Made by a program: the position numbers and the translations under genes. Positions 4,213-55,615 of a DNA stretch of 64,000 bases are shown one piece after another. This DNA comes from a virus: positions 1 through 64,000 of IMG/VR virus record IMGVR_UViG_3300042900_000746; one strand, given 5' to 3'. The notes below the pieces were generated by a model that searched no databases, was not told the DNA's origin, and saw only the letters and a program-made list of their open reading frames with translations. The stretch's first letter is position 1. Each line of letters starts with the position of its first letter.

Positions 4213-4306
4213 TGGCGGAGAGGGTGGGATTTGAACCCACGGACATTTTTTCAAACGTCGACATCTTAGCAGGATGTTCCATTCAACCGAACTCTGGCAC
4301 CTCTCC
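4213..4306 (-). tRNA. tRNA-Ser (anticodon GCT), CCA encoded
   Basis: The minus strand folds as a full type II tRNA: acceptor arm GGAGAGG/CCTCTCC, D-arm CCA/TGG, anticodon stem ACATC/GATGT with loop CTGCTAA, a long serine-type variable arm, T-arm GTGGG-TTCAAAT-CCCAC, discriminator G, and a genome-encoded CCA tail. The anticodon GCT (complement at 4268-4270) reads AGC and AGT serine codons. It lies between the exonuclease and the reductase genes and is probably processed from the same transcript. Confidence 0.95.
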
Positions 4307-46900: not shown

Positions 46901-49343
46901 CAAATGCTACGGGCTTATCTACTGCTCTAGCATAGTTATATTTAGATGTTAAATTAAATGGATAAGATCTAAAAGAATTTAATACATTTAATTCATTATT
47001 TAATCTTCGTGTACCAGAAGTACTATATTGACTATCAATAACTGCGTAGGCGCCAAAATTACTTGGTATTGTTAGCTGCGGCGAAACTTTATCTGTATAC
47101 GCGTAACATTTAATATTTGGATCTGTTACTTTAAATAAATAATAAGATGAAGGTATATTTTCATTATTAATATTTGTACTGGTATTGACTACTGTCGTAT
47201 TACTTATTATGACATCAGGATTTGTGACCTCTATGAATATTTCAACATTAGATGACGATAAACTTTGAATTATTTCCCTTTGTGCAAGTGGCAAAAAACT
47301 ACTTAAGGATGATTTATAAAAATCAAATATAGAGCTATTATTATTGATAATAGCTCTAGCATATTTAGATTCTAAATTATTAATTAATACCTGTGTAAAA
47401 TACTGTTCTTTTTCATCATCAAACAACGCATTTTGATCCATAGTCCATGACGAATCCCACTGCGTAATAAAATTATATAAAGAACTTCTGATATCTATTG
47501 AACGAGTTGCTTGACTCCTGCAATATAAAGCGTAGGAAACTATATTGTACAATAATTTAAAAGGACCCTCAACGATACCAGAATACAATGTAGTTCCACT
47601 TAGATCCGCTGCAGTGGGGCCATAGTTCGAATCGGCTACTTGCTCCGGACTATTTATGCTATAAATAGAGTTGCAATATGGCATTAGTGGGAAGGTTGTT
47701 CCAATAATATTGCCTCGAGATAATGAATCTCCACTATTCGGATAGGCCAATACTACACCTGCGCTATATGTGGATGTAGAACTCGCGCCTAAATTTAGGA
47801 ATGAGTTTACTGTTGCTGCATTATTGAAATATTTATAGTTCTTATAGGCGTTTCCCCTATATGAATAATTGGATCCATATATTCCATAGTTGTCTTTTTC
47901 AAAGATACCATCTTGTATTGTCCATCCACCATTTTTAGTATTATCTAATAAAACATTAGTATCTACAGTATCTATATAGTTGGATGAAGTTGTTGCTGAA
48001 CTTAAGCTTAATTGTGGATTTAGTACTGTGGCATTGCATGTCCCACTGCTCATATCAAGAATTAAAGTTCCATTTTTTCTTAGAAATTCTTGAATTTTGG
48101 CGTTTTGATTTGCTGTTATTGATACTGGTGGAGACCAAGCTAAAACATCAAAATTATTAAGATCATCAATAGAATCTATATCGACCTTCCAATAAGAGGC
48201 CAATGTTTTGTCTGTGCCTGTTGCGTTGGGATTAACGAATGTATATTTAGCCAAATTAAACGGAGAGTTTTGCAACCTTGCAAAAACATATGGGTTAACA
48301 GTAGAATTATTTTCTTGAGTTGATGAGCTATATAAAACTCCTACCTTAACAGTTTTTTGTACAATAGTGCCAGAAGAATCTACTTCTGAACCATAGTTAA
48401 CTTGATCAAAATTAATATTATTTCTTGTCCTGGCAATCATTCGCCAGTTAAAAACTTCAAAACTTCTATAATCTTTAATGGCTTTTGACGGTACAACTAT
48501 TTGATATCCACTTTGTTGGTTTACTTGGGAAATTAAAGTGCGATATTTATGATCTATTTTTGTAATAGAAAAATTATTTTTATCTTTATAGTTATCATCT
48601 ATAACAAATGACTCTTCTGGAATTTCGTAAAAGTATGGAATGGCATTAATTGTTTCAGTATAATTTATATTTAGATTAAATATGTTTGCGTTGTCATCGC
48701 ATTCTACTTTGTCGTATACTAATTTCAAATTATTAGGTTCATCTGAATCAAGAAGCACTATAATTCTATAGGGAAATTGATTGTTTGCAAAATTATTTAA
48801 AGTTTTAAATGGTTCTAAAAGAATTCTGTATTTTTTGATATTAGTTATTGGGTCTACATATTCTTTGTTGTCTGCACCCAAAACTTTTATATTAAGATCT
48901 TTAATTGATTCAAACGGAACATATTGCTTTAAGGATATTAAAGATATATTTGCCGGACCAGTAATAAAATATCTACTGATGTACATATAGTGAACAAAGT
49001 CACTTGCGTCCGTTTTGGTAATATCTATTTTTTCTGTGTCTGTTGGTCTGTTTAAGAATATATTTCCAACAGTAATATCATTACTTGGAAAGTTATAACT
49101 TCCATCTATTTTTTTTAAGAAACCTAGCTCGTCAGCAAAGACTATGGTTGCCTTTAATCCGTCTTCATTTGTAATTCTATTTTCTTGTATACTTCCAGAT
49201 ATATCAACCATAGAGATGTTGCTGCGTGGGCTTACCTTCGATGAGGAAAACCATGATATACCAGCAGCTTCCGTGGGAATATTTTTGCCAATTTTAACTG
49301 ACTTTTCATTGCCATCTGTTGTTAAATTTTCAAACTTTTTCAT
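43932..49343 (-). CDS. Giant tail protein with internal peptidoglycan-binding domain
   Basis: An 1803-residue, mostly beta-rich protein. Residues ~905-965 form a PG_binding_1-like domain (VKYIQFTLAAHGSYKSVVDG, then IYGPLTEAAVKKFQ and EDGKVDSETKWYL), the same wall-binding fold as at the endolysin C-terminus. Flanking domains carry Thr/Ser/Asn-rich beta segments. It is likely a long fibre or baseplate adhesin that docks on the peptidoglycan. It shares one base with the upstream gene. No catalytic motif is seen. Confidence 0.68.
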   Translation of the reverse strand: MKKFENLTTDGNEKSVKIGKNIPTEAAGISWFSSSKVSPRSNISMVDISGSIQENRITNEDGLKATIVFADELGFLKKIDGSYNFPSNDITVGNIFLNRPTDTEKIDITKTDASDFVHYMYISRYFITGPANISLISLKQYVPFESIKDLNIKVLGADNKEYVDPITNIKKYRILLEPFKTLNNFANNQFPYRIIVLLDSDEPNNLKLVYDKVECDDNANIFNLNINYTETINAIPYFYEIPEESFVIDDNYKDKNNFSITKIDHKYRTLISQVNQQSGYQIVVPSKAIKDYRSFEVFNWRMIARTRNNINFDQVNYGSEVDSSGTIVQKTVKVGVLYSSSTQENNSTVNPYVFARLQNSPFNLAKYTFVNPNATGTDKTLASYWKVDIDSIDDLNNFDVLAWSPPVSITANQNAKIQEFLRKNGTLILDMSSGTCNATVLNPQLSLSSATTSSNYIDTVDTNVLLDNTKNGGWTIQDGIFEKDNYGIYGSNYSYRGNAYKNYKYFNNAATVNSFLNLGASSTSTYSAGVVLAYPNSGDSLSRGNIIGTTFPLMPYCNSIYSINSPEQVADSNYGPTAADLSGTTLYSGIVEGPFKLLYNIVSYALYCRSQATRSIDIRSSLYNFITQWDSSWTMDQNALFDDEKEQYFTQVLINNLESKYARAIINNNSSIFDFYKSSLSSFLPLAQREIIQSLSSSNVEIFIEVTNPDVIISNTTVVNTSTNINNENIPSSYYLFKVTDPNIKCYAYTDKVSPQLTIPSNFGAYAVIDSQYSTSGTRRLNNELNVLNSFRSYPFNLTSKYNYARAVDKPVAFDVTLSTGLTATFSAQLKSVRLTPTNPTLPSGEIVSTSASCINFESAIDDLRFLRPTDTSNANNVFPYTGDIDIHKDTKIWTSDRTPTGEYVKYIQFTLAAHGSYKSVVDGIYGPLTEAAVKKFQIDNEQLYEDGKVDSETKWYLTKFWKNEANFDNWITWARDVTKVPEVIKYMQAARATVVASGLESNQTYRKITFTGFGGPSEARDIIFFEVDTSKLKIVNSIEIQADDNPLWKNFSIVGYGWSSSFGKDIFKTNLRSINANAFNRDVVIQMGGMPAEDCKYMWVSVVGRSVAYYGYGEGFGIKAIEAYGTTIKDVDPGDQTVTVPARETLVTAIVVSEETHNNVTTALDASKTYTTSNLTRSASYVSSITYSDPQIFEGTKTETFANGEYKLDDNETHTFDNLMINFASAPTSVTLNSAAITTVTSNGITVTGNPVTLTASGNQYSLTTSATYYSGSQIFNITNSLATGYKLRTIDGRIFSDSRNSVDVNDGILLLCNQSGSPYGLPTSAEINTQLTGISSINSEEIDLRYGSFIVKNEIENQDGFIYGFYDILEKEFLGNQITYIDILSRGVNNIFIGVCAIDADGNTQNKNEYIGPTLNTTFKPVNVPLRTIVPVYSVKTNSNSAIKVGKINDNLSKFDAWPLRLTTGSFWKKISISSERKWTGWKANYIDQELNAEYTTVNEFEPPSSELFGFGHQDIVNESPLILSSNKIQVSSTPILAWNHPTNNRNSIVGIIKPQIKIYTRESVSSQWVEIAYSQIRDIDCYSGLVEFNKNMIPQDSQLVKVNYTTVNRDILLNHINGVPIPLNPVLNSNNIYYNQPLYIYVLPKNIYKKQNIQNNTNNLIKIDDYLYDSAINFTYDTAIFDNRSSEYDPFALPIATIYVTNNPYSVAPETVDLRLKGGGITVDKTNYELLEAIPEVLSFWDVYAPSGKAYNKGGYVIIRIPKEVKDYFVDQKEIYNIISNNLTAGIAYELQDMDGNSWN

Positions 49344-52300
49344 TACTGTTCCTCATAATCTGGATGAGAATTCTCTAAGGTTGTTATATATTCTGGAGTT
49401 GATCCAAATAGCTTTAATTGATATTGATCAAATTTTCTTAATGGAACCCATTTTTCTGGAATCCAATTTGGTGTAGCGCCATTTGCAATAACGCTAGAAG
49501 AATCTGAATGCTTATACACGAAATTAGGAGTTGCAGTTAGATCTGAACCAGCCTGCTTGCTGTGGATGAATGAACCAGGTAAAGGCAGTCCTTCGCTAGC
49601 ATACTGCACGTTATCATAAGCTTCATTCCAATAAACGATATCACCAGATATAGTAACGGCAGTTAGTGATAAATCTTCCCCATCATTTATTAATAAGTTT
49701 CTGACTATAGTTGGATCATCAATCTCAATCTTAAGGAACCAGTGACCAGGATTGGTATTCGATTCAGAAGTAATATTATTGTTTATTGCAAAAGTGCCGT
49801 CAGAATTGGTTGTTATACTATCTGCGGGAGTTCCGTCAAAGAGGTCTAACAAAGTTCTTTCCTTAATCCAATTTAGATCTATTACGTGTTCAAATGGTCT
49901 ATTTTTCCAATAAACCCTACCTACAATTGATACATTTGTTAGCCCGTCAGCTTGGATCGAATACCTTACTGGTGTTGCTTTTACCTGTAAATGAAATTTA
50001 TTATTCATATGTATTTTAAATGGTATGACTTTTTGATATCCAGCGGTTGGTGTATCTGTAATGCCAGAAATCAATATCGAACTTTCATCCAATGTGGCAG
50101 GTATGGAGCCAGTGTATCTAACTATAGTAGTTGCAAAACCATTATCGTTTGTTTGGACTTGAGGGTCTTCAGCGTCAATCTCTGTGCTATAAATGTCAAA
50201 CGACATATTTGGTTTTAAGTTTCCGTTAATATCATAAGATACTATTGATAAATACATTAAATCTTCTGCTGAATCAGTTATATGTGCTGGTGATAGGTAG
50301 GCGTCTATCGATCCATATTCATATTCATTAGTATCAATGTAAACATAGCCTTCTTCTAAGGGATTACTAACTTGATTTATATCAAGGTCTATATTGTTAT
50401 GGTTATTCATATAATCTGATTCATAGATTATCTCATAAGAAGGAGTAGGTGACACAGTTGAAGGGGTAGTGGACAAGTATAAGTTAGCTACGTAAGAATC
50501 TTTTGCGCTGGAATAGACATCTTTATCTACATAAAAAGCGTTATTAACATAATATACGACTTCGTATTCTCTACCCTGGACTGATGGGGTAGCCTCTGAG
50601 AATGGCGAAATAACATTAGTTGCCGTACTCAAATTATTATATAAAGTTTTTCCTGTATATAAATCTTTTACAGATATTTTAGATATATTTTCATATGCCA
50701 GATATAAAGAGTTGCCACTATTTCCAAGAATATTTTCAGTATTATAAAAACTTGCCTTACCTGGTGTAGCTGAATCGGTAAATATTAAATTTCTATACTG
50801 AACAGCTGGTGTAGCTGAATCATTGGCGACATTTACTATTATAGGTGCACCGAATCTAGGTATAGAAGTTAATTCAATATTAAAAAACTTTCCAGTATGA
50901 TTTTGGGTTACTGGATTAGCATAAATATAGTGTTGGTCTTGATCAAGATATAACCAGCCGGTATTTAATCCAGTAAGATATGAACTCTCATTTAGATTAG
51001 TTCTCTTGGCATTGACGTTCACATATGTTTTTTCACTTGACGATATTGAGGAGTTTAAGCTATCTAGTAGTACCTCGGGATTATCTACATAAGCTTCTAT
51101 GCTGTTCGGTGTTGCTGCAAGTTTGACATAATTGATATCATATATATCTTCTAAATCTAAATTAAAAGAAGTTCTATTTAAATCAATAGTCTGCAAAAAT
51201 TTATCTTGATTATAGAAATAATTTTTTGATTCATTTATCTTATTGTAAGTATTATTATTTTCATCAATATAACCACTAAATACATTGGGCGTTGTGGTGG
51301 CAGTGAATATATCATTAGTAATCTTATCGAATGGATAATGAGACGAAGGGGTTGCAGCGTCAACGAGTATATAATTAGGAGTAGTAGAAGAGAAGTTAAT
51401 TGTTGCAGATGTTAGATAGTCTTTAGATCCTATCAAAGTGTTATTTGATGCATAAAATCCATACTTAATATTTGGAGATGATGGAACCAAGTATGAGTTT
51501 TGGGTATATGGATCTATTGCATATCCGCCATGAGAAGAATATGATCCAGAGCGATAAAGATCTTGTATTGCTGGAGTAGCTGCATTTATGTATAGATAGT
51601 TTAGGGATGAACCTGGTGGATATATGATCTTATCTAATAAATCATCTTTAAAAGATATAATTTTATTTTCTTTGCCGGAAGCAGATATATCATTTACGGA
51701 GTTTAATACAATATTAGAAGTTAATACATCAGAATTTTTTACCTCTTGCTTAGTTTCATAAACAGTGGATCCAATTCGTAGATTTGCATTTGTATAGTCT
51801 ATATTTGGTGATGTTAATGTGGTAGAGGTGCTAGGGCTTGGGTCGGATACATATGCTATGGGTGATGTGTTAAAAGAAGCTCTATAACCAGCAACTTCGA
51901 TTGTATCGTATGACTGTGTTCCCTGATTCCATCTAACACTATACGTAGTCTTAACGCTGGCTGCGTCATAGACACTAATTGAATTTGATGCTGGGGTAGC
52001 CTCTGTATTATAATACACGTCATTTGTTACTTTATTTCTAAACTCAAGATCGGTTAAAGTTAATCCATCTTGGTCAAATATTTTTATCAGACTAAATTCT
52101 GGACTTGCAGAGTGAGTAGATAAGAATCTATTTCCAACGTACATATCATCTCTATCTAGATAAGATAGATTGGTATAAAAAGTATTTGTTGCTGCATAGT
52201 TATCGTGGGGCGGTATAACAATTTCGTATGCTACTGCTACTCCTATGCTTTCGAACGGAACGGCAGTAAAAGACCGCACTGGACGCACGCGGATCGTGGG

Positions 52301-54433
52301 GGTCATCTTGTCGATGTTGGCGGACTGATTGCCGTTGGAGAAATTCTTGTACCACGCGAAGACGTTGCCGTTCTCAGAAGAACTCCAATAGGTGAAAGTA
52401 GAAAAATCGTCGCCAAGAGCAACACGGTTTGTATAAATTTCGGCAAGTTCATCTTTCGACGGCAAGAACCAATCTGATTGTCCGCCAGAAACTAGTTCAC
52501 TACAATACACTGCGGCCGATGTTGCTGCCACATTTCCTGATTGAGCAACAATATCAATAGTATTTTGTGCACCCGTACCAATCGCTGTACCGTCAGCGCC
52601 AGAAGCTGCCGAATACTGGTTCGCGCCAGTAGACCAAGTTCTTTGTACTTGTGTTGATACTGGAGCTACCTCAAAATATCTACCCGTAGAGTTTCCTGCC
52701 GTAGATGGGGTAATAAAAATCTTGCCACCACCAGGACCAATATCCCCAATTGCGTAGGATCCGGTACCAGCTTTTCTTCTGGGGGCTTCGTAATCTGAAA
52801 CTGTTCTAGTATAATTTAAATACCAAGAATAATGGATGTCTACTGGAGAATATACATACGAGGGGGTACTACTTATTTTTGTTCCGCCAATTTCAATATG
52901 TCCAGAAAATGATACCGTTGCTGATTCAACTGGATCTATCATTAACTTAGCGTCGTCAAAATCACCAACACCTGGTTGATAGTACTCAGCTGGCAGATCT
53001 GTATCTGTATCGTAAATTGCTGCAATTCGGCTTATACCTTCACCTAGTGTTCCAGCATAATCCCATACTCCATCGCCCCAATTAACATATCCTAAATTAC
53101 TTGGATATTTAATATTCAATTCTTCTACTAACTGCTTAAAGGCTGGAAGTGGCTTACCATCTTCGGAGAAATAATCTGCTGAAGATTCAATATCAGATAT
53201 TTCTAAAATCTCTGGAGTTGCGCCTGAATAATCAGAATCCGGCGTGGAACCGTATGCTCTCCATAGGTCTAACTCTCTTCTAAGAGTTTTCTTGTAGGCG
53301 TCCATAGAGACACCAGGAATGTTCTTAGTGACATCTAAAATTCTTTTTCTATAATTAGAGTTTGACTCTAGATTAAGTCTCGGCAGGCTGACTCGAGCAC
53401 CAAATTCATCAAAGTCATTATATATATTTAAAGGGTCTTGACCATATGTGGTGTTATTAACTTTTAATATTGAAAAATTTCTCATTGTTATTATTTGACG
53501 ATCCACCGCATTATAATAAAATACATAATCTGTAGATCGAGAACTAAAGAATTCCAATAAAGAAGAAACTCTACTCAACGGTATATCATCGCCAACTATT
53601 GTATTGATATTAGCTGGAACATTATATGATACATAACACCATGCTAGTTCATTGATATCTGCGCTATTGATATAGGCATTAATTCCATATAGATCAATCT
53701 TACCGGATATATAATCTAAATTTTCTCCAACTAGGGCATTTAGAAATGCACCGCCAGTTGAGTTGGGGGTCGCTAGACTCGGCGTAGCATCGGCCATTGA
53801 GTCTTCGAATAATGCTGTCCAAGAAGGAAATCTTTTAAGAATATTTCTTACAGAATTAGATATTACTGGAGAAATTGGATTATAAATTCCTATTTCTAAA
53901 TAAAATACTAAACCAAGTTGATTGATGTTTATTTCATCAGCATATATTTCAAGTTCTACTTTTATATATGGCTTTGCATTTCTGATAAAAATAGCGTTGG
54001 TATCTCCACGAAGGGAAGATTTTAGCCACGGTCCATCTTCATCATCTGACTCATACATCTGAATATTAAAAGTGGGAGATATAGTTCCTGGTATATTTGT
54101 AAAAATATGCCTATAACTTAGAATATCTATTCTTGAAGAAGTGTCTATAAACCTTTGAACGTTAGGAGTGGCTTCTTCGTATATTATTTCTCCAATGTCT
54201 GTCATATATATAGCGTTGGAGGTTAGCGGAGTATGGCCACCCAATGTAGATGGTGAAGTCAATTCTGTTCCGACGAATGTTTTATCACCTATCAAATCTA
54301 AGCCAGATGGTGACCTTATAGATGAGTAGTTCTTATACTGATTATTGCTATATAAATTTATAGAGTCAGTTGTCCATATATTGCCAGATTTATTAAAATC
54401 AGAACTTTTTAAAAGTAACAAATATTGCTTCAT
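49343..54433 (-). CDS. Giant tail-fibre protein with lectin-like domain (candidate DGR target)
   Basis: A 1696-residue protein and the likely receptor-binding candidate. Residues ~548-722 form a DUF1566/Lcl-type, C-type-lectin-like domain: IGDIGPGGGKIFITPS, YFEVAP, IGTGAQNT, DWFLPSKDELAEIY, TYWSSSE, then IRVRPVRSF. The rest is beta-rich with about 25 scattered (A/S/T)TP tripeptides. An acidic-aromatic N-terminal region (ILKRFPSWTALFEDSMADAT) may attach to the baseplate. The 3' end of the lectin-like domain shows the base pattern of a DGR variable region (separate entry). Confidence 0.72.
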   Translation of the reverse strand: MKQYLLLLKSSDFNKSGNIWTTDSINLYSNNQYKNYSSIRSPSGLDLIGDKTFVGTELTSPSTLGGHTPLTSNAIYMTDIGEIIYEEATPNVQRFIDTSSRIDILSYRHIFTNIPGTISPTFNIQMYESDDEDGPWLKSSLRGDTNAIFIRNAKPYIKVELEIYADEININQLGLVFYLEIGIYNPISPVISNSVRNILKRFPSWTALFEDSMADATPSLATPNSTGGAFLNALVGENLDYISGKIDLYGINAYINSADINELAWCYVSYNVPANINTIVGDDIPLSRVSSLLEFFSSRSTDYVFYYNAVDRQIITMRNFSILKVNNTTYGQDPLNIYNDFDEFGARVSLPRLNLESNSNYRKRILDVTKNIPGVSMDAYKKTLRRELDLWRAYGSTPDSDYSGATPEILEISDIESSADYFSEDGKPLPAFKQLVEELNIKYPSNLGYVNWGDGVWDYAGTLGEGISRIAAIYDTDTDLPAEYYQPGVGDFDDAKLMIDPVESATVSFSGHIEIGGTKISSTPSYVYSPVDIHYSWYLNYTRTVSDYEAPRRKAGTGSYAIGDIGPGGGKIFITPSTAGNSTGRYFEVAPVSTQVQRTWSTGANQYSAASGADGTAIGTGAQNTIDIVAQSGNVAATSAAVYCSELVSGGQSDWFLPSKDELAEIYTNRVALGDDFSTFTYWSSSENGNVFAWYKNFSNGNQSANIDKMTPTIRVRPVRSFTAVPFESIGVAVAYEIVIPPHDNYAATNTFYTNLSYLDRDDMYVGNRFLSTHSASPEFSLIKIFDQDGLTLTDLEFRNKVTNDVYYNTEATPASNSISVYDAASVKTTYSVRWNQGTQSYDTIEVAGYRASFNTSPIAYVSDPSPSTSTTLTSPNIDYTNANLRIGSTVYETKQEVKNSDVLTSNIVLNSVNDISASGKENKIISFKDDLLDKIIYPPGSSLNYLYINAATPAIQDLYRSGSYSSHGGYAIDPYTQNSYLVPSSPNIKYGFYASNNTLIGSKDYLTSATINFSSTTPNYILVDAATPSSHYPFDKITNDIFTATTTPNVFSGYIDENNNTYNKINESKNYFYNQDKFLQTIDLNRTSFNLDLEDIYDINYVKLAATPNSIEAYVDNPEVLLDSLNSSISSSEKTYVNVNAKRTNLNESSYLTGLNTGWLYLDQDQHYIYANPVTQNHTGKFFNIELTSIPRFGAPIIVNVANDSATPAVQYRNLIFTDSATPGKASFYNTENILGNSGNSLYLAYENISKISVKDLYTGKTLYNNLSTATNVISPFSEATPSVQGREYEVVYYVNNAFYVDKDVYSSAKDSYVANLYLSTTPSTVSPTPSYEIIYESDYMNNHNNIDLDINQVSNPLEEGYVYIDTNEYEYGSIDAYLSPAHITDSAEDLMYLSIVSYDINGNLKPNMSFDIYSTEIDAEDPQVQTNDNGFATTIVRYTGSIPATLDESSILISGITDTPTAGYQKVIPFKIHMNNKFHLQVKATPVRYSIQADGLTNVSIVGRVYWKNRPFEHVIDLNWIKERTLLDLFDGTPADSITTNSDGTFAINNNITSESNTNPGHWFLKIEIDDPTIVRNLLINDGEDLSLTAVTISGDIVYWNEAYDNVQYASEGLPLPGSFIHSKQAGSDLTATPNFVYKHSDSSSVIANGATPNWIPEKWVPLRKFDQYQLKLFGSTPEYITTLENSHPDYEEQ
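52274..52390 (-). other. Candidate DGR variable region
   Basis: About 117 bases coding from TYWSSSE to RVRPVRSF. From the Glu after SSS to the Arg of RPVR, 30 of 34 codons end in G or C and 19 end in C, while neighbouring codons mostly end in A or T. The exposed positions are nearly all N-N-C codons (AAC, GGC, GTC, TTC, TAC, TCC, GCC, ATC, GAC, ACC, CCC), the outcome expected when adenines of AAC codons in a template repeat are randomised. The invariant frame (WSSSE, AW, NF, NGNQ, RVRPVR) matches lectin-fold DGR targets. No template repeat or reverse transcriptase was found in this window. Confidence 0.6.
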
Positions 54434-54445
54434 GCAAAAACCTTT

Positions 54446-55615
54446 TTAATAATTAGAAGATCCTATTATAACAGAATATATATTCACACTTCCAGCTGTA
54501 ACGTATTCTTTTATACTATTTGGCATAAAATCTCTTAATGGTAGCTCTTTGCCATCAGCTGTAAATGTATTAATAGTGACGCCTCTTACAAGATCGGAAG
54601 AAAGCTTTATTTGTTGTTCTATTTCAGATAATGAAACAGTATTTCCAATAGTCATAGAATTTAAATATCGCTTAACAAACATCGCTGCCTGATTTCGCAC
54701 TCCATTAATTATAGTATCTGAGTTACCTGAGGGAATGGTTATTGTAGCTGAAACGTTAATGCTAATTTTCTCTGCTACTCTTACATTGAATCTGACACCA
54801 ACAGGCTTAACAGCACTGATTGCACTTAGAATTGCTTGTGGCAAAGCTTTGATCGCAGATGAAACCTCAGGAACTACAATGACGTCACATGACCCTATTC
54901 CATAAGAGGCTTCACGTATCCTTACGTCTTTCACTCCTTTAACCGAAAGGGCTGCAAATCTTACGGATTCGACTGTGCCTGGAGCCTTAGTCTTCATGGA
55001 AGCTAGTATTCTTCTACGATAATTATCATCAGACTCTGATGTAATATTGGAGTAAATTTCCTTGGGGTTATTGGAGAAAACAACTACTGTTGGCGGTGCA
55101 ATAAAATTATGTTTAGTGAGCGAATTTTTAGGGGCAACATATGAGTTATCTGAGAAATTTGGTTCAGCCCTACCATAGGATCTTGTAGCGCCAGCTGGTA
55201 TAGAAACAGTCGAAGATAATTTGTAGCTATATTGTTTAGTGGTAAAATTAGACACGTCATTGTATAATAATGTACCAGCTGGTATTGTTATTCCTGCGCT
55301 GTGGGGTTTATCTATGAAAAATTCTACGTTAAAAGATTGTCTTTCTTCTGCGACAAAATTTGTAACGGACTTTCTTGAGACACCATATAGATCTCCAATT
55401 AAGTCTAAATTCCTACCAGACGCTGTACTTAAGTTACTTTGCGAAACAGTAAATCTAAATGCCTCATAAAGATCAGATATCTCCGCACTAACTGACTCTG
55501 CGAAGGCTCTAGCAATAGAGCCTGGATAAATGGCTGTAATACCAGCATTTTTTTCAAGCCCATTAAGTATGGAGACTAGGATTTCTGATTTATTTTTAAC
55601 ACCGTAAATAGCCAT
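54446..55615 (-). CDS. Baseplate J-like protein
   Basis: A 389-residue protein of the Baseplate_J family (Mu gp47 / P2 J / T4 gp6-like). Marks: AIARAFAESV-type N-terminal helix (SIARAFAESVSAEISDLYEA), GRNLDLIGDLYGV, ESDDNYRRRILASMKTKAPG, TVESVRFAALSVKGVKDVRI, and the C-terminal INVSATITIPSG. It forms the baseplate wedge of contractile tails. It starts one base after the gp25-like gene's stop in the opposite order, in the classical gp25-J neighbourhood. Confidence 0.85.
   Translation of the reverse strand: MAIYGVKNKSEILVSILNGLEKNAGITAIYPGSIARAFAESVSAEISDLYEAFRFTVSQSNLSTASGRNLDLIGDLYGVSRKSVTNFVAEERQSFNVEFFIDKPHSAGITIPAGTLLYNDVSNFTTKQYSYKLSSTVSIPAGATRSYGRAEPNFSDNSYVAPKNSLTKHNFIAPPTVVVFSNNPKEIYSNITSESDDNYRRRILASMKTKAPGTVESVRFAALSVKGVKDVRIREASYGIGSCDVIVVPEVSSAIKALPQAILSAISAVKPVGVRFNVRVAEKISINVSATITIPSGNSDTIINGVRNQAAMFVKRYLNSMTIGNTVSLSEIEQQIKLSSDLVRGVTINTFTADGKELPLRDFMPNSIKEYVTAGSVNIYSVIIGSSNY

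Follow-up and report, generated by a model that had tools for sequence, protein, structure and literature searches.

The fibre gene at 49343..54433 on the minus strand of the window, by which we mean the whole 64,000-nucleotide stretch of viral DNA analysed here, probably encodes an orphan target of a diversity-generating retroelement (DGR). Its product of 1696 amino acids would have captured an Lcl module, the variable region (VR) of which comes from, or is rewritten in trans by, DGRs of actinobacteria. This reading is built on comparisons of the gene with other phage records and with bacterial contigs.

A variable region and its template

The sequence-only reading of this DNA had noticed that the codons of the fibre gene switch to N-N-C at 52274-52390, and this switch stands up to a statistical control. 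The 34 codons at 52274-52375 hold the maximum of G/C-ending codons in the gene (30/34, against a gene mean of 0.25) and also that of C-ending codons (19/34, against 0.15). Shuffling the codons 2000 times gave maxima with a 99.9th percentile of 21 for G/C and 17 for C, and the maxima of ten other long ORFs in the window do not exceed 17/34 and 13/34, respectively.

A scan of viral contigs for Lcl relatives gave 70 loci, and a domain end rich in G/C at third codon positions (GC3) was seen in a subset of the relatives only. In this subset the frame TATTGGAGTTCTTCTGAG...GCGTGG...CAG...AAG...GTGCGTCCAGTGCGG is largely common while the intervening codons vary at positions 1 and 2, and therefore a template with AAC at the variable codons was predicted from the phage VRs and recorded before any template was found. 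A loose template pattern retrieved 120 viral contigs, 118 of which carry a DGR reverse transcriptase (RT), an element absent from the query. In IMG/VR a strict AAC-only pattern and a template repeat (TR) pattern using the window's own third bases gave 0 matches each, and a framing pattern returned VRs only and no template. Among genome contigs the framing pattern found 12 loci, 11 titled as actinobacteria and one as Fibrobacter, the last with a continuation unlike the other 11.

The framing pattern is matched by the template of QYPH01000006.1 (L237), a 5 kb contig of an actinobacterial MAG in which a complete DGR locus was observed. This includes an Lcl_C target with its VR, a bAvd gene (PF22296, E 3e-14) and an RT (PF00078, E 1.4e-19), with the TR between. 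The TR, which reads GAG AAC GAC GAC AAC AAC GCG TGG AAC CAG AAT TTC AAC AAC GGC AAT CAG AAC AAC AAC AAC AAG AAC AAC ACG AAC TAC GTG CGT CCA GTG CGG, is near the predicted template. Compared with it, the VR of L237 itself is changed at 27/42 adenines and 0/69 other bases, and that of L234 at 26/42 and 0/69.

The VR of the window (117 bp, 52274..52390 on the minus strand, TATTGGAG...CCAGTGCGG) is changed relative to the same TR at 16/42 adenines versus 4/69 other bases (p=3e-5), with one insertion of 6 bases. When only bases not used to retrieve L237 are counted the figures are 11/31 and 3/44 (p=2e-3). By codon position the mismatches number 9, 10 and 1, which places 19/20 in positions 1-2. As a blastn query the L237 TR matches the phage record at 52268-52406 (E 7.5e-26), the VR itself being its only match there, and it has matches in 18/20 of the genomes or records searched. 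The VRs of L014 (22/42 adenines, 4/69 other bases) and L232 (19/42 and 2/69) gave comparable counts. In the control set of Lcl relatives p<0.01 was obtained in seven loci only, all of them GC3-rich (0.54-0.79); the other 47 Lcl segments have no clear adenine bias, and most have a GC3 like that of their surroundings.

At the 3' end, VR and template have the same 15 GC-rich bases, GTGCGTCCAGTGCGG (52274..52288, minus strand, in the window), an IMH-like segment, and no obvious stem-loop was found just 3' of the VR. Since four non-A positions differ (the template equals the VR at 65/69) and the 6-base insertion adds two codons, located between CAG and ACG, the L237 template is a related and not the exact one. 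The concentration of mismatches at adenines and the AAC codons of this template support the assignment of 52274-52390 as a DGR variable region with NNC codons that trace to template AAC codons, which is what had been proposed from the letters alone. Another pair of relatives, L047 and L055, have near-identical Lcl scaffolds and VR differences mostly where one of them has A; these may depend on a separate template, since the L237 TR fails to account for them.

Loci of the L237 type appear to be actinobacterial, judging by MAG titles and gene content, with the provisos that misbinning is possible and that the Bifidobacterium breve titles are doubtful. Targets L240 and L243 are placed among seemingly ordinary chromosomal genes, such as acetyl-CoA synthetase-like and MoxR-like genes (named from sequence). 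An RT was detected in only 1/7 actinobacterial genomes searched, and the viral RTs nearest to that of L237 gave no match to the L237 TR. One MAG (CAMDER; L238, L240, L242, L244) contains five or more Lcl targets, dispersed and with VRs of this template class, but no RT was found in it, which points either to a multi-target DGR or to incompleteness of the bin. The bacterial target at L237:2703-3689 (minus strand) has collagen-like repeats fused to the Lcl domain, as in the Legionella Lcl adhesin.

The phage record and its Lcl cassette

Neither an RT nor a template repeat was found in the window or in the 133,870-base phage record. The RT was sought with RVT_1, with two DGR-RT HMMs in all six frames and by inspection of xxDD motifs, and the repeat by blastn of the region and by an adenine-tolerant ungapped scan. 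The record is incomplete, as a sister record (G002) extends about 4.2 kb beyond its left end, and this extension contains no RT and no TR. The suggestion that both elements may lie outside the window is supported, a matching RT and template having turned up in an actinobacterial genome (L237) and not in the phage record. The sequence-only reading had also held that their absence from the complete genome, together with a lack of excess variation at these codons in close relatives, would refute it; as to the first half, both are absent from the record, which falls short of the complete genome. In the related phage records searched RVT_1 was negative except for two distant ones (L076, L077), the RTs of which were rejected as a source, being next to other putative target genes with no link to the Lcl domain. 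An HMM search of the fetched VR loci of phages found no RT, and nothing convincing as a TR was seen within 10 kb of the Lcl domains of the relatives.

The record contains genes for tail sheath, baseplate wedge, portal and terminase, and a contractile tail is therefore likely. The baseplate-wedge-like gene (54446-55615, assigned by a baseplate wedge PHROG) adjoins the fibre gene, which was itself recognized by its ORF and its Lcl_C match. The closest relatives of the DnaE-like polymerase are those of Streptomyces phages (actinophages), at only 37% identity. The host is likely an actinobacterium. The sole tRNA found in the entire record is a tRNA-Ser(GCT) at 4213-4306 (minus strand) of the window. 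The fibre protein (49343-54433, minus strand) contains 20 short [A/S/T]TP tripeptides with varied codons, for example in DSATPAVQ, LTATPNF and NGATPNW, against 0-1 in each of seven other large proteins encoded in the window. Close relatives retain most of these tripeptides, and one is insertion-like with respect to L018.

The presence of a lectin-like domain in the fibre, already suspected, was confirmed by an Lcl_C match (PF07603, formerly DUF1566) at residues 632-720, which scores 37.3 to 40.7 bits and is above the curated cut-off of 34.9. The Lcl/DUF1566 C-type-lectin-like cassette of about 178 aa was delimited at 52244..52777 (minus strand) by its presence or absence among fibres and by a structural model. 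Its scaffold (52391..52777, minus strand) has the A/T-ending codons typical of the phage and shares 81% identity with the scaffold of the actinobacterial target L243 over the compared stretch. In the sister phages L068 and L071 a homologous fibre was observed without the cassette, DYEA-GRANDR-GVALAYE replacing about 180 residues, and in the record of L008 the Lcl domain is located away from the fibre homologue. These gaps and this displaced domain show that the module is mobile.

The cassette was modelled with a pLDDT of 87. The nearest solved structure is the C-terminal domain of the Legionella pneumophila collagen-like adhesin Lcl (8q4e, E 1.3e-6), the best match in the PDB in both sequence and fold, with however just 23% identity over the structural alignment. 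Matches to C-type lectins were also found, although weak. Residues 130-168, which form the VR, are mostly within the C-terminal strands of the modelled domain. The VR closes the Lcl domain, as in C-type-lectin-like targets, at the end of the domain and not of the gene.

Variation between strains and between phages

Two close relatives were available, L006, which is nearly the same phage, and L007, a strain whose gene is 98% identical. In the stretch compared upstream of the VR, 40 codons differ between the window and L007, of which 31 are synonymous changes. At 52474-52729 the scaffold half of the Lcl domain is swapped for a diverged, mostly synonymous version in a strain that is otherwise near-identical, and the scaffold of L007 is best read as an allele replaced by homologous recombination inside the cassette.

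Within the VR the two strains differ in five codons, all nonsynonymously (AAC/AGC, AAT/GAT, TCC/TAC, AAC/GAC and GAC/AAC). Four of the five changes are on template adenines, the fifth being in a codon absent from the L237 TR; one strain always has A, and 4/5 are A/G transitions. With five differences, mostly of this kind, the sample is too small to separate mutagenesis from selection. Moreover the two strains agree at 15/15 doubly mutated A sites and share one common VR apart from the five substitutions, so that no re-templating is apparent within this phage and ongoing hypervariation is at most a possibility. A comparison of strains for excess variation at these codons had been proposed; its one informative pair gave five nonsynonymous VR changes in favour and 15/15 mutated sites in common against. 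The further claim that this phage can vary its receptor-binding surface goes beyond these data, as the record is without a DGR and the single strain pair shares its VR but for five substitutions. No VR excess was seen between L016 and L017, and most other sets of strains of Lcl phages are clonal.

When two different phages are compared, about 1/3 of the A sites mutated in both carry the same base, which is what independent sampling of one template would give, and the fixed bases of the template are shared across differing scaffolds. The window and L232 are 66% identical upstream of the VR, which is near background, and 91% identical at the fixed bases of the VR; for L237 the values are 59% and 94%. 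Fixed-base identity so far above scaffold identity indicates that the history of the VR is separate from that of the scaffold. A stretch of 423 nt that takes in the VR is 75% identical to L243, and the likeness of the scaffolds mentioned above indicates exchange with bacteria.

Origin of the variable region

In the reading that we prefer, the fibre would carry an Lcl/C-type-lectin-like module acquired by capture, with a DGR VR as its final 117 coding bases, and the machinery (Avd, an AAC-rich template RNA and an adenine-error-prone RT) would reside in freshwater (lake) actinobacteria rather than in the phage record. In related actinobacterial genomes several Lcl surface-protein genes lie dispersed, their VRs belonging to the same template class. 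The module, and a separate VR in each phage, would have been acquired by recombination with diversified bacterial (or phage) genes or, alternatively, when bacterial cDNA retrohomed into an infecting phage. We infer that the outcome would be a receptor-binding tip sampled from the hypervariable repertoire of bacteria. The data are compatible with recombination as well as with trans retrohoming, and we lean towards capture by recombination because the sole strain pair shows no re-templating.

Trans retrohoming, in which the VR of an infecting phage is rewritten by the RT and template RNA of the bacterium and diversification continues, is possible, and we hold it only tentatively. It agrees with the differing histories of VR and scaffold, with fixed bases that are almost TR-like in several phages, with A sites seemingly sampled independently across phages and with the intact 15-base 3' end of the VR, and action in trans on remote targets has been inferred inside one bacterial genome (PMC10907252). 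However, a single VR is common to the window and L007, the remaining sets of strains are clonal or lack an excess of VR variation, a stem-loop after the VR is not obvious, and recombination accounts for the same data. It is on an equally tentative footing that phages of freshwater actinobacteria might carry orphan DGR targets hypermutated in trans by chromosomal DGRs of the host, which would write the receptor-binding tip.

An ordinary phage-borne DGR acting in cis, with RT and TR in an unassembled part of the genome, is improbable. The record is indeed incomplete, the sister record being about 4.2 kb longer at the left end, and phage DGRs with Lcl-type templates are common; yet in such phages the RT shares a short contig with the template (118/120), no RT was found in the loci around related phage VRs nor in the records except L076 and L077, and the framing pattern retrieves only VRs from IMG/VR. 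Far less credible still is an origin outside DGRs, through recombination with a GC-rich segment or ordinary positive selection on these codons. Several relatives do have GC3-rich ends, some lacking a TR-like bias, and the two strains differ at few positions, mostly by A/G transitions, but neither process accounts for adenine-biased mismatches to a template that adjoins an RT, with 19/20 in codon positions 1-2. Plain import of a GC-rich segment was rejected since the mismatches concentrate at adenines (16/42 vs 4/69) and in those two positions.

Among the closest known systems is the DGR of Bordetella phage BPP-1 (mtd, avd, TR, brt), in which a receptor-binding, C-type-lectin-like target is varied at adenine-derived codons. 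The fibre described here resembles it in being a phage target of that fold with such codons, whereas BPP-1 carries avd, TR and RT in cis. A stem-loop after the IMH of BPP-1 is helpful and not strictly required (PMC12875486). DUF1566 domains are known DGR targets in human microbiomes (PMC4159848); these systems and many IMG/VR phages have the same target domain, the same position of the VR within it and the same AAC-rich template class (..GCC TGG TAT CAG AAC TTC AAC AAC GGC AAC CAG..). They differ in that RT, TR and target are together, while the target of the window stands alone and in the middle of a protein of 1696 aa. Bacterial targets of the L237 type end with the VR (..VRPVRAF stop), whereas that of the window is internal, two codons longer and in a record free of RT and TR. 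In Thiohalocapsa PB-PSB1 remote targets match a distant TR at non-A sites, and action in trans is the best explanation (PMC10907252); there the match is perfect at non-A sites and within one bacterial genome, whereas here it is between phage and bacterium with four non-A mismatches.

Roux et al. stated that their own search would not detect remote targets (PMC8144416), and in the literature searched, with subscription papers mostly outside its scope, we came across no publication that matches a phage target to a chromosomal DGR of a bacterium. Surveys locate DGRs through an RT beside the VR, and consequently orphan targets of phages are missed. If phages take lectin tips with bacterial VRs, or use bacterial RT in trans, phage and host would draw on a shared pool of hypervariable surfaces. 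If this is true, a VR and its template would provide a link between a phage and its host. DGR action across genomes becomes testable, now that TR, RT and target are defined.
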